From contig JACWAD010000009.1 of assembly GCA_014874175.1 (NCBI GenBank), forward strand, positions 1 through 38,921: a stretch of 38,921 nt of DNA, read 5' to 3'. Below, piece after piece: positions 2,525-38,760 of this stretch; position 1 is the first letter of the stretch; each line of letters starts with the position of its first letter. The stretch is from Thermoleophilia bacterium. Lineage in GTDB: Bacteria; Actinomycetota; Thermoleophilia; BMS3ABIN01. The position numbers and the translations under genes are program-made. Below the pieces are notes generated by a model. The model searched no databases. It was not told where the DNA came from and was given only the letters and a program-made list of their open reading frames with translations.

Positions 2525-2559
2525 GTTTCCTGGCATCCAGCATCCGATATCCGTTTCAT
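2525..2559 (+). repeat. Heptad repeat array (5 units) abutting tRNA-Pro
   Basis: The 35 bases before the tRNA divide exactly into five 7-mers: a GTTTCCT unit, GGCATCC, AGCATCC, GATATCC and a final GTTTCAT. The last unit ends at the base before the mature tRNA 5' end. The units resemble those in the arrays at 27390-27515 and 37973-38035. Confidence 0.6.
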
Positions 2560-27082: not shown

Positions 27083-27389
27083 GGCGGCGCTCCCATCATG
27101 GCAGCCGCAGAATGATGCCCGGCTTCATTGTCAATAATATTTTGTAACATTAAAGATACTTTCCGCTTGTGCATCATGCCAATTTAAGATGCATTTGGCC
27201 AAAAAGCATGCTGGAAAAGTTTTCCCCGGCGCGCAAAAACAAAACCTGGATGGCAATTCCGCCATTTTGACCAGACGCGCGAAACGTCAAAGGGGCGATC
27301 TGCAGCGGACTCCGCTTCCAACTCCCCGCGGCTGCGGCCCGGGCCCCTCAAATTCCAACGAAAAAGGCCGCTGTGTTATCATGTCTCAT
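27083..27389. other. Intergenic region between divergent pgi and pgsA
   Basis: I see no gene. A consensus TTGACA occurs on the minus strand at 27134-27129, pointing at pgi, but no good -10 lies 16-18 bp further on. The part around 27130-27200 is AT-rich; 27220-27360 is GC-rich with short GC palindromes but no terminator. The heptad array begins at 27390. Confidence 0.5.
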
Positions 27390-27515
27390 GTTTACGATTT
27401 CCAGTTTACGATTTCCAGTTTCCGGTTTACGGTTTCCTGTTTGGGCGTTTAGCGTTTGGTCTTTCGAATTTTGGTTTTTTGTCTGGTATTCAGCGTCCAG
27501 AATCCAGCATCCGCT
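27390..27515 (+). repeat. Degenerate heptanucleotide array (18 units) abutting pgsA
   Basis: These 126 bases divide into 18 consecutive 7-mers without a phase break. The first part alternates GTTTACG and ATTTCCA (27390-27417), then GTTTCCG, GTTTACG and GTTTCCT. The middle decays into T-rich units, and the last four units are of the type GTCCAGA, ATCCAGC, ATCCGCT. Two bases later comes the pgsA ATG. The same TTT-type then CATCC-type order is seen at 2525-2559 and, inverted, at 37973-38035. Confidence 0.8.
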
Positions 27516-27517
27516 TA

Positions 27518-28048
27518 ATGGCTAACTTTTTTACCACCTTGCGAATTCTTGCCATGCCGGCGATTTTCCTGCTTGCGCTTAAGTCCGGCGGCGCCAGCAA
27601 CGCAGCCTTCGCGATCTTTCTGGCTGCAGCCTTTACCGACCTGATCGACGGCAATCTGGCGCGGCTCACCGGCTCCGTCACCGAGCTGGGTAAATCTCTC
27701 GATCCCGTTGCCGACCAGGTCCTGATTGGAGGCACAATTATCGCCCTTACGATCTCAGGGCGGCTGCCCCTGCCCGGAATCATCCTGGTAGCGGCCCGGG
27801 ATATTTTCCTGATTGTTGGGTATAAGCTGTTCAGACGCCGCGGCGTCGTCATCAGGGTGTCAAAACTGGGTAAGACCTATACCGTGGTGCTGCTGCTGGC
27901 GATGATCATGGCGCTGGCCAGTATTGGCAGGCAGCATTGGTACGCTGCCCTTTTCGGCATCTGGCCCTGGCTGTTCTGGGCCGGCGTCGCCGGCTCCTTG
28001 CTCTCCGGCGTTGCCTACACGCTCAAGGCAATCAGGGAGCTCGGCTGA
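27518..28048 (+). CDS. CDP-alcohol phosphatidyltransferase (PgsA-like)
   Basis: This 176-residue membrane enzyme carries the complete CDP-alcohol phosphotransferase motif DGx2ARx8Gx3Dx3D, with Asp44, Arg49, Gly58, Asp62 and Asp66. The length and helices fit phosphatidylglycerophosphate synthase or a related synthase; other acceptors such as inositol or cardiolipin precursors are possible in actinobacteria. The ATG at 27518 has no Shine-Dalgarno because the heptad array runs up to two bases before it. An in-frame TTG at 27479 lies inside the array and would add 13 residues encoded by repeat sequence, which I think unlikely. Heptads also occur 35 bp after the stop. Confidence 0.88.
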   Translation: MANFFTTLRILAMPAIFLLALKSGGASNAAFAIFLAAAFTDLIDGNLARLTGSVTELGKSLDPVADQVLIGGTIIALTISGRLPLPGIILVAARDIFLIVGYKLFRRRGVVIRVSKLGKTYTVVLLLAMIMALASIGRQHWYAALFGIWPWLFWAGVAGSLLSGVAYTLKAIRELG

Positions 28049-28228: not shown

Positions 28229-30742
28229 ATGAAGGCAGTAGTGATGGCTGGGGGAGAGGGCACGAGGCTGAGGCCGTTGACCAGCAACCAGCCCAAGCCC
28301 ATGGTCCCCATAGTTAACAAGCCGTGCATGGAACATATCATTGAGCTGCTAAAGCAGCATGGGCTCAGCAACATTGTCGTCACCGTTGCCTTCCTGCCCC
28401 AGAGCGTGCGCGCCTATTTCGGCGACGGCTCCTCACTGGGCGTCTCGATCGAATACTCGGTCGAGGAGAGCCCGCTGGGGACCGCGGGAAGCATCCGCAA
28501 CGCCGCTGAACACCTGGACGAGACCTTCATAGTCATTAGCGGCGACGCCCTCACCGACTTTAACCTCAGCGAGATCATCAATTTTCATAATCGCAAGAAA
28601 TCCCTTATAACAATCGCCTTGAAATCTGTTGAAAACCCGCTTGAGTTTGGTGTTGTAATTATCGACGATGAGAACCGCATCAAGCAGTTCCTGGAGAAGC
28701 CGAGCTGGGGCCAGGTATTTAGCGATTATGTCAACACGGGCATTTATGTGCTCGAGCCCGAGATTTTTGACTACATCCCCGAAGGGGAAAAGTACGATTT
28801 CAGCCAGCAGCTTTTCCCCAAGATGCTGGAGCGGGGCAAGCCCATGTTCGGCTATCCCTGCGACGGCTACTGGCAGGACATCGGCAATGTCAACCAGTAC
28901 CTGAGGGCAAACCATGACGCTCTCGACGGCAAGGTGAAGGTCAACATCCCCGGGATCCGGCTCCAGGAAAATATCTACATCGGCGAGAAACTGAACCTGG
29001 GCAGCCTTGACAACATCCGCGGCCCGGCGCTGATCGGCAACTACGCCAAGATCGATCCGGAAGCCAAGATCATGCCCTATTCCATCTTCGGGAACAACGT
29101 CGTAGTCAAGGACAACGCCGAGACCGACCACTGCGTTATCGACTCCAACACCTACATAGGCTCCGTCGCCAAGGTGAGCGGCTCGCTGGTGGGCAAGAAC
29201 TGCGAGATCAAGCCCAGCGCCACTATCCATGCTAACGCCGCCATAGGCGATGAGTGCAGCATCGGCGAGCACAGCATGATCGCCAGCAACGTCAAGATAT
29301 ATCCGTTCAAGGTTATCGAAGCAGGCGCCCATGTCCACAGCAGCATCATCTGGGAGTGGCGGGCGCTCTCCACGCTGTTTGGCAAGGACGGCGTCTCCGG
29401 CCTGGTTAACGTCGATATTACCACCGAGCTGGCGCTGAAGCTGGGGATGGCGTACGGGACGACGCTTGACAAGGGATCCCAGGTGACCTGCAGCCGGGAC
29501 GAACACCCGGCTTCCCGCATGATCAAGAGGGCCATTATCGCCGGGCTAACCTCAACCGGGGTAGGCGTGCGGGACCTCAGGGTAACGCCGGCGGCGGTAA
29601 ACCGTTTCGGCCTCAAGAGCGGCCGCGCGGCCGGCGGCATTCATGTGCGCGCATCGGCCTGGCATCCCGAGTTGATACAGATCCTTTTCTTCGAGCCGCC
29701 CGGCAGCCCCGTTTCACCGGCAACGGAGCGTGAGATAGAAAAATACTATAACCAGCACAACTACCGGCGCGCCTTTTATACGGAGATCGGCCAGATCCTT
29801 TACCCGGCCCGCTCCACCGAGGAATACATCCACGGCCTCCTTACCAGTTGGGACACCGACAAGATCCGCAGCCGCGGCTTCCGCTTTCTGCTTGACTACA
29901 GCTTCAGCTCCGCCTCGCTGATCGCCAGCCGCATGCTCTCCCGGCTGGGCGCGGAGATAATCGCCCTTAACACTTTCCTTGACGAGGACAAAAGTTCGAC
30001 CATATCCTCGCGGTATGAGCCGGGTTCAGGCCGCATGCAGAAGCTGGTCCTGTCAGCCGGTGCCGACCTGGGGATAATCATGGACAACGCTGCGGAGAAG
30101 ATCTTTCTCGTCGACGAACAGGGCCACGAGATATCAACGGAAAGAACCCTGTTCCTGCTGCTGAAGCTGATGGCAGCCTCTGAAGGCAAGGGAACTATCG
30201 CCGTGCCGCTGACCGTCTCGCGGCTGGCGGAAAAGCTGGTGGAGGGGACGGGCTGCCGCATCCTGAGAACCAAGGTATCCCAGGCCGCATTGACCGAGGC
30301 GTCTGCCGGCCCGGACATCATCTTTGCGGGCGCCATTGGCGGCGACTACATCTTTCCCCTGTTCCTGCCGGCGCAGGACGCGCTGATGAGCATGGGAAAG
30401 GTGCTGGAGTTGCTGGCGCTTTCTGAAAAACCACTGTCGCATCTGGTGGCGGACATCCCTGACACGACGCTTCTGCATGAAACAAAGAGCTGCCCCTGGC
30501 CGCTAAAGGGAGCCGCCATGCGGGAGATTTCGGAAAGCGTGCTTGATGAAGAAAACGTGGACAGGCTGGACGGGGTCAAGGTTTTCTATGACGAAGGCTG
30601 GGTGCAGATACTGCCCTCTCCTGATGAGCCCCTGTTCGAGATTTACGCTGAGGGAGACACAATGGACGATTCCCGCGAGCTGCTGGAGCGTTTCTCGGCC
30701 AAGCTCGACGAGGTGATGGCGGCGCACGAACAAGAAGTCTAA
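28229..30742 (+). CDS. Sugar-phosphate nucleotidyltransferase fused to a degenerate phosphomannomutase domain
   Basis: The 837-residue protein has three parts. Residues 1-235 are a nucleotidyltransferase with [13 protein letters not shown] and PKPMVPI, as in GDP-mannose or glucose-1-phosphate pyrophosphorylases. Residues about 250-360 are left-handed beta-helix hexapeptide repeats (for example [15 protein letters not shown]). From about 375 it resembles phosphomannomutase/phosphoglucomutase. In that domain the phosphoserine loop (usually xASHNP) reads RASAWHPE at 474-481, and the metal-binding DGDxDR reads DNAAEK at 619-624, so mutase activity is unlikely. Similar long proteins are known in actinobacteria and cyanobacteria and are usually annotated as mannose-1-phosphate guanylyltransferase. 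It probably supplies activated sugar for cell-envelope glycans. GGAAAGGA precedes the ATG. Confidence 0.85.
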
Positions 30743-30763
30743 AACCGGATGGTGGAGGCTGAA

Positions 30764-37967: not shown

Positions 37968-37972
37968 TAAAG

Positions 37973-38035
37973 CGGATGCTGCATGCCGGACTTTGATGCT
38001 GGACAACCCGAAACTTTGAACTTTGAACTTTGAAC
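37973..38035. repeat. Heptad array (9 units) between murT and gatD
   Basis: The 63 bases after the murT stop divide into nine 7-mers, ending in three tandem TTTGAAC units (38015-38035). Read on the minus strand it gives GTTCAAA units, then GTTTCGG, then AGCATCA-like and finally GCATCCG units. That is the same order of TTT-type then CATCC-type units as at 2525-2559 and 27390-27515, but inverted. The array overlaps the first four codons of gatD as annotated. Confidence 0.75.
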
Positions 38036-38760
38036 TGAGAATTGCGCATCTTTACCCGGATCTGATGAATATTTACGCAGACCGGGGCAACATTATTGCG
38101 CTGGTCAACCGCTGCCGCTGGCGCGGCATTGATGTGCATGTCGATGAATTCAGCCCGGACCGGACTCCTGCCTGGGATGACTACGACTTCTTTTACCTGG
38201 GCGGCGGTCAGGACCGCGAGCAGCAACTGGTGGCTGAGAACCTTGCCGCCAAGGGAGCCGGGCTGACGGGCGCAGTCGAGCAGGGAGCGGCCCTGCTGGC
38301 CATTTGCGGCGGTTACCAGCTGCTGGGCCAGTATTACCGCACAGCAGGCGGACTGACGATGGAAGGCGTGGGGCTGTTTCAGGCATACACCGTCGCCGGC
38401 CAGCGGCGGCTGATTGGCAATGTCGTGGCTAGATGCAGCCTGGACGGCGTTTTATTGGAACTGGCAGGATTCGAGAACCATTCCGGAAAAACCTTCCTGA
38501 CCGGGGATGGACAGCCACTGGGCCGGATTGTCGCCGGCTTTGGCAATAACGCCGAAGACGGGACGGAAGGAATAATATACAAGAGCGCCATCGGAACTTA
38601 TCTTCACGGTCCGCTCCTGCCCAAGAACCCGGAGCTGACTGACTTCCTGCTAGGGCGTTCGCTCATGCATCGTTACGGGAAGGAGGTTGTCCTGACGCCC
38701 CTGGATGACTGCCTGGAGAAAGAAGCGCACAGAGTGGCGGTGGCGCAGGTCCGGTATTAA
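38023..38760 (+). CDS. gatD: Lipid II isoglutaminyl synthase, glutaminase subunit GatD
   Basis: This is a 245-residue class I (CobB/CobQ-like) glutamine amidotransferase that delivers ammonia to MurT. It begins with LRIAHLYPDLMNIYADRGN, typical of GatD, has the nucleophile Cys95 in LLAICGGYQLLG, and the catalytic His in GTYLHGPLLPKNPELTD. The only usual start in frame before that conserved N-terminus is the TTG at 38023, which belongs to the TTTGAAC repeat; no Shine-Dalgarno precedes it. The repeat encodes the first residues. Termination is at 38760, right beside the proS terminator. Confidence 0.93.
   Translation: MNFELRIAHLYPDLMNIYADRGNIIALVNRCRWRGIDVHVDEFSPDRTPAWDDYDFFYLGGGQDREQQLVAENLAAKGAGLTGAVEQGAALLAICGGYQLLGQYYRTAGGLTMEGVGLFQAYTVAGQRRLIGNVVARCSLDGVLLELAGFENHSGKTFLTGDGQPLGRIVAGFGNNAEDGTEGIIYKSAIGTYLHGPLLPKNPELTDFLLGRSLMHRYGKEVVLTPLDDCLEKEAHRVAVAQVRY

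Follow-up and report, generated by a model that had tools for sequence, protein, structure and literature searches.

The heptanucleotide array upstream of pgsA

The window, a 38,921-nucleotide stretch of DNA from a Thermoleophilia bacterium (contig JACWAD010000009.1), carries a pgsA-like gene that is directly preceded by a 126-base array of 18 heptanucleotides (27390-27515). The host bacterium is uncultivated. The locus contains the following features.

27377..27382, + strand: predicted -10 element TATCAT, directly preceded by TGTG, and a predicted transcription start at about 27389-27390 (conservation)
27390..27480, + strand: A-type arm of GTTTNNN/ATTTNNN units (Tandem Repeats Finder, TRF; unit list)
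27390-27421, + strand: perfect GTTTACGATTTCCA x 2.3 within the A-type arm (TRF)
27481-27509, + strand: B-type arm GTCTGGT ATTCAGC GTCCAGA ATCCAGC A (unit list; genome consensus [TCCANNR]nTCCGNTT)
27510-27516, + strand: terminal unit TCCGCTT, with a gap of 1 bp to the ATG (genome consensus [TCCANNR]nTCCGNTT)
27518..28048, + strand: pgsA-like CDP-alcohol phosphatidyltransferase (PF01066, 1.8e-30)

Identity at lag 7 within the array is 0.605, compared with 0.289 (s.d. 0.04) in shuffled sequence, and none of 5000 dinucleotide-preserving shuffles scored as high. The two halves are each significant at this lag (0.696 and 0.576), and the array has the top lag-7 value among the 126-base stretches of the window. 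Two bases (27516-27517, TA) separate its end from the ATG at 27518-27520. The original prediction, made from the letters alone, had described 18 heptamers over 126 bases that stop two bases short of the ATG, and this description was confirmed. Its claim that the units run with no phase break did not hold: the GTTT core shifts by +1 at 27446 (CGTTTAG, CGTTTGG, TCTTTCG, AATTTTG) and returns to register at about 27481, leaving about five units (27447-27480) one base off register via two compensating slips. TRF detected period 7 at 27390-27442 and 27491-27512, and period 14 at 27390-27421 with a 100% match. With tandem 7-nt units far beyond chance, the array belongs with the intergenic heptanucleotide tandem repeats (short tandemly repeated repetitive sequences, STRR, or heptameric simple sequence repeats, SSRs); an identity of 0.605 and two arm types set it outside the (near-)perfect copies of a single unit that characterize a heptameric SSR. 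A search of Rfam at the gathering score gave no match in the array, and elsewhere only sub-threshold chance matches.

Period-7 arrays across the genome

All assemblies examined were drafts. The window is contig 58 of a 1.78-Mb assembly of 107 contigs, and 1,776,135 bases, essentially the whole genome, were scanned for lag-k runs. At a score of at least 16, lag 7 gave 79 runs, whereas lags 5, 8, 10, 11 and 13 gave none; at a score of 13, 152 arrays were found at lag 7, compared with 0-6 at the control lags. The arrays are mostly intergenic (126 of the 152), and 119 of these 126 have the consensus unit RTYYNNN (GTTT, GTTC, ATCC etc.) on one strand, compared with an expectation of 55.8 for shuffled heptamers of identical composition. 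The purine strand is the sense strand in 83 arrays versus 41 (p = 0.0002), a bias of about 2:1. The original prediction had provided for a period-7 autocorrelation no better than in shuffled sequence, or for a genome with no similar arrays elsewhere; instead, the shuffles were exceeded and many such arrays were present. Like other intergenic heptanucleotide repeats, these arrays occupy many loci, chiefly intergenic, and are lineage-restricted.

Composite anatomy of the arrays

Inspection of whole gaps revealed a polar plan. Read along the pyrimidine strand, the order is A arm ([GTTYNNN]n), GGGTTTA, B arm ([TCCANNR]n) and, last, the terminal unit TCCGNTT. In 45 of 73 gaps the B terminus was flush with the gene edge that follows it (-4 to +5 bp), while random placement in these gaps gave 7.5 expected and a maximum of 18 in 20000 simulations; at stop-codon edges it was flush in 25 of 33, compared with 4.1 expected. 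The edges that it meets are stop codons, the 5' or 3' ends of tRNA genes, and start codons. In co-directional gaps, purine-sense A arms lie at a median of 7 bp from the start codon (38 of 58 within 12 bp) with none at 6 bp or less from a stop, purine-sense B arms lie at a median of 7 bp from the preceding stop, and arms in the reverse orientation take up the mirror image of these positions.

Between the arms of some copies lies a sigma70-like promoter core whose spacer is conserved (purine strand: TTGACARATAGTAAATAATNGTTATAATTTTT). This core gave 17 matches at up to 8 mismatches, compared with a mean of 1.2 and a maximum of 7 for spacer-permuted controls, and an A arm lies downstream of nearly all 17. 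A fixed consensus and spacer-permuted controls were used here in place of an iterative position weight matrix, which was dropped after it drifted to generic AT-rich sequence (1108 matches versus 1038 in the reversed-genome control). Both the arm classes and the promoter core were first delimited by eye, so that the tests made of them afterwards are not fully independent. The pgsA array is in the pyrimidine-sense orientation and lacks the promoter core. The original prediction had overlooked that the array belongs to a composite element that recurs across the genus and has polar ends.

The pgsA leader and its orthologs

The loci L154, L155, L156, L158 and L160 share the motif GCTGTG(A/T/G)TAT(C/T)(A/T)T upstream of pgsA, and it occurs in species both with and without the pgsA array. 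A consensus promoter scan upstream of pgsA returned nothing usable and did not call the -10 element. If TATCAT at 27377-27382 is the -10 element, transcription would begin where the array does, at about 27390, and the array would correspond exactly to the leader; on this prediction, it fills the pgsA 5' leader from the transcription start to the ATG.

The pgsA of G001 (protein 74% identical) has no array; its short leader contains CCGGAGG, and translation probably starts at a CTG. G003, G004 and G005 also lack an array upstream of pgsA. The closest sister, G002 (86%), has an array of different units, GTTTCACGTTTTGCG...CCAACATCCGGTTTC. The Shine-Dalgarno (SD) leaders of the array-free relatives, together with the different units in G002, argue that an SD leader was overwritten at pgsA and that the units are replaced quickly. 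Across the genome, 8 of 56 array-led genes have an SD at one or other of their candidate starts, compared with 253 of 742 others (p = 0.0018). The proposal that the array takes the place of an SD is thus upheld, both by the GGAGG-type leaders of array-free relatives and by the rarity of SDs at array-led genes.

The orthologs in L155, L158 and L163 seemingly share a conserved CTG start behind GGAGG-type leaders, for example GGAGGCTGCCCTGGTTACC and GGAGGCCGCCCTGGCAGTT. A TTG at 27479 is in frame with pgsA and would place the start inside the array. A coding role for the resulting N-terminus, for which similar peptides can be read in G000 and G002, was considered and rejected: the array appears to sit in another frame in each of the two, and the similarity looks coincidental.

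Turnover and growth of the units

Identity between units is 0.70, 0.61, 0.50, 0.42 and 0.38 at distances of one to five units, against a background near 0.33. This decay of similarity with distance supports local duplication, and together with the perfect 14-bp duplications in the first half of the pgsA array it agrees with the earlier suggestion of a replication or recombination product formed by slippage or expansion. In a comparison of 8-kb loci, the orthologous gaps of relatives that are 80-85% identical often held an array in one species only, or arrays of other units. Array lengths also differ at orthologous gaps, in a comparison made at the level of species.

Arrays that precede ATG starts showed no phasing to the ATG (n = 30, p = 0.79), and a spacing-dependent binding array is therefore not supported. 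An initial signal of start-codon phasing (p = 3e-6) was rejected, as it came from TTG starts that belong to the unit and was gone for ATG starts. The idea of selection on 7-bp spacing, or of a phased binding array at pgsA, accordingly fell away: ATG starts are unphased, the array slips register, and the orthologous arrays are absent or built of different units.

Distribution among relatives and other phyla

Of six genomes sampled from the genus, five gave 61-103 matches to three consecutive GTTTNNN units and one, G004, gave none; the other relatives gave 0-2. The B consensus ATCCANNATCCANNATCCGNTT was found in the same five genomes and in G008, of the same family, with 0 matches in the other 54 relatives. 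The rest of the class has almost none of these arrays. Across 396 genomes of the phylum, further matches came only from G363 and G413; G363, from another class, is also rich in A units (20 versus 0 for the reversed pattern). The sister assemblies found in a wider collection scan are metagenome-assembled genomes named 'Actinomycetes bacterium' (DBS2-1.bin96, bin122 and FK_Sedi_B_Bin.151). With arrays that run through the genome and most of its sister species and end almost exactly at gene edges, the pattern looks like that of a lineage-specific repeat family and not of a pgsA-specific switch.

The genus offers a clean natural experiment, with five array-rich sampled species set against G004, which has none, with different units in orthologous gaps, and with ends that stop only a few bases away from genes, tRNAs and promoters. 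This makes the origin of the arrays, by slippage, insertion or an enzyme, testable. G004 is 97% complete and carries heptamer arrays of neither type, and it can serve as a natural control for tracing the responsible gene.

The collection scan also gave single matches in other phyla, several of which (L185, L194, L195, L199 and L200) belong to genuine heptamer arrays that share the terminus of the family. Heptamer arrays ending in TCCG(C/T)TTT were seen in these five and in L184, on contigs of Acidobacteria, Eremiobacterota, Proteobacteria and Bacteroidetes. The reversed-pattern control for this follow-up was not clean, as (TTTGAAC)n matches it in another register. In the Acidobacteria genome G426, GTTCAAA arrays form inverted pairs about 40-50 bp apart.

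Origin of the pgsA array

We favor, with a probability of about 0.6, the reading that the pgsA array is one copy of a genus-wide intergenic composite family of degenerate heptamers (RTYYNNN) that has overwritten the normal leader. In this pathway, copies would first be seeded at many intergenic sites, a dispersal that we infer and that may proceed by copying insertion or by gene conversion between intergenic regions. Slippage or unequal duplication, in steps of 7, 14 and 21 bp, would then lengthen the arms and renew their units. Finally, the other spacer DNA would be lost, which would leave the arrays flush against irreplaceable sequence (core promoters and the ends of coding sequences and tRNAs). 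At pgsA, a copy would have overwritten the whole leader from the transcription start to the start codon, including the SD and the ancestral start region, and translation would begin without an SD, at the ATG at 27518 or at a start within the array. Beyond providing the leader, the array probably has no sequence-specific regulatory role at pgsA. Of this pathway, the data establish the family with its anatomy, its flush ends and its distribution, the local duplication of units and the replacement of the leader.

Several points weigh against this reading. Neither a target-site duplication nor a clean empty site was demonstrated, and no mobilizing enzyme was identified. Slippage alone leaves the same arms and terminus at over a hundred loci unexplained, and spacer loss alone does the same for the conserved terminal unit TCCGNTT. 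The 2:1 purine-sense bias could reflect function. The gene calls, from open reading frames plus hexamer statistics, are crude, with uncertain starts but firm stops and tRNA ends.

Mobile promoters and miniature inverted-repeat transposable elements (MITEs) are dispersed intergenic sequences that bring a sigma70-like promoter to many unrelated genes. The present family is likewise dispersed and intergenic, and has a sigma70-like core in some copies. It may be a true mobile element of the MITE-like or 'mobile promoter' type, with TCCGNTT and GTTYC as termini, inserting precisely beside genes and having the heptamers as internal structure. The conserved terminus and composite order and the conserved promoter core, including its spacer, are consistent with this, as are elements that are found in one species and missing from the orthologous gap of another, and the existence of palindromic ATTCCGC heptamer elements (one, C28:5935-6128, absent in bin96). 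We nevertheless consider a mobile element somewhat unlikely: unit number and sequence vary freely and the length is not fixed, no target duplication was shown, the pgsA copy itself has no promoter core, and near-identical pairs occur only at contig ends (C66/C76 and C28/C75), where they are possibly assembly duplicates. These variable arms, the restriction of near-identical copies to contig ends and the lack of a shown target duplication would also set the family apart from mobile promoters and MITEs. Another possibility, which we regard as doubtful, is that all RTYYNNN arrays are one cross-phylum element type produced by a dedicated process, such as the templated addition of 7 nt or copying by an enzyme that would fill dead space as far as the next functional edge. 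It is based on the same units (GTTCAAA, GTTTCCA and ATCCANN) and the same terminus (TCCGYTTT) in Acidobacteria, Bacteroidales and Eremiobacterota genomes and in G363.

A role at the level of translation or RNA, with units that stand in for the SD and serve as sites for a repeat-binding factor, a model put forward for the TAACTGA repeats of Beggiatoaceae (PMC4679880), would account for the depletion of SDs at array-led genes (8 of 56 versus 253 of 742), the purine-strand sense bias and the termination of A arms at start codons. It is hard to reconcile with the lack of ATG phasing, with B arms that follow stop codons and lie at both ends of tRNA genes, where translation does not start, with the opposite orientation of the pgsA copy, which has B units before its ATG, and with orthologs that do not conserve the units; we rate it as improbable. 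Phase variation, in which length steps of 7 bp switch pgsA expression or frame via the in-frame TTG at 27479, could draw on the fact that 7 is not a multiple of 3 and on the occurrence of in-array starts. However, pgsA is a housekeeping lipid gene, arrays adjoin many unrelated genes and tRNAs, and the degenerate units of the B arm would seldom slip, making such a switch very improbable. Although the genome is a 107-contig draft, chance, base composition or an assembly artefact is already refuted by the controls, as none of the 5000 shuffles reached the observed identity, the control periods have no arrays, and arrays of this class recur at orthologous loci and in five further assemblies from the genus or family.

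Comparison with known heptanucleotide repeats

An excess of heptanucleotide repeats in bacteria has been noted since 2007, and to our knowledge no convincing cause has been given. The closest likeness to the composite family is with the TAACTGA heptamer direct repeats of Beggiatoaceae, Cyanobacteria and Bacteroidetes, which, in a relative of Beggiatoa, run up to the start codon and take the place of the SD (MacGregor 2015, PMC4679880). Both are intergenic heptamers that mostly end just before start codons, with rare SDs and a patchy distribution. The present family differs in its degenerate units, GTTYNNN and TCCANNR, in its two arm types and terminal unit, and in arms that also abut stop codons and tRNAs, some of them enclosing a promoter core.

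Heptameric GGGAATC / GGGGA(C/T)T repeats occur in Xanthomonas and Nostoc, and three tandem heptanucleotides in Calothrix are cited in the same source (PMC4692102). The Xanthomonas and Nostoc repeats share lineage-specific intergenic placement, heterogeneous units and between-species length variation with the present family, and their units fit RTYYNNN once rotated (ATTCCCG, ATCCCCA). They differ in having a single, G-quadruplex-forming unit, and the text consulted describes neither a composite A/B plan nor a flush terminus for them. Heptanucleotides are the most abundant unit class of long SSRs in most prokaryote genomes, and polymerase slippage, linked to the contact length of the polymerase, has been proposed for long SSRs (Mrazek et al. 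2007, as cited in PMC4679880 and PMC4692102). That class, as represented in these citations, consists of exact repeats, and the present arrays are too degenerate for most exact-repeat surveys. Searches of open-licence papers found no description of a two-arm plan with a flush terminus. Heptanucleotide arrays are a known class, and the degenerate two-arm anatomy with a conserved flush terminus, sometimes enclosing a promoter, is a new form of it. The family shows that essential genes can lose an SD leader to repeat DNA, and cautions against taking degenerate arrays before start codons for gene-specific regulatory sites.

Other elements in the window and the genome

Three further copies or parts of the composite element lie in the window.

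37968..38040, + strand: second composite, with stop TAA, TAAAGCGGATGCTG (B arm) ... AACCCGAAACTTTGAACTTTGAACTTTGAAC (A arm), running into the start region of the next gene
30740..30756, - strand: B terminus TCCACCATCCGGTTTTA, overlapping the stop codon of the coding sequence 28229-30742
2529..2556, + strand: B arm CCTGGCATCCAGCATCCGATATCCGTTT, ending 3 bp ahead of the tRNA-Pro gene (2560-2636)

At 38012-38049, the frame of the next gene appears to open inside an AACTTTG array (TTG AAC TTT GAA CTG AGA ATT GCG CAT CTT), in which case the array supplies its start codon. At C28:5935-6128, C70:15764-15914 and C94:27848-27986, G000 carries a third type of element. It is palindromic and about 140-190 bp long, and consists of an AT-rich centre flanked on both sides by ATTCCGC / GCGGAAT heptamers. 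The gap in DBS2-1.bin96 that is orthologous to C28:5935-6128 does not contain the element, and is an apparent empty site with no clear duplication. A GC-rich intergenic sequence, GCCGGCCGGGA..TCTCCCGCCGC..GCGG, lies beside arrays in two species (L190:6025-6357 and G000 C55:7748-8085) and is possibly another dispersed repeat.
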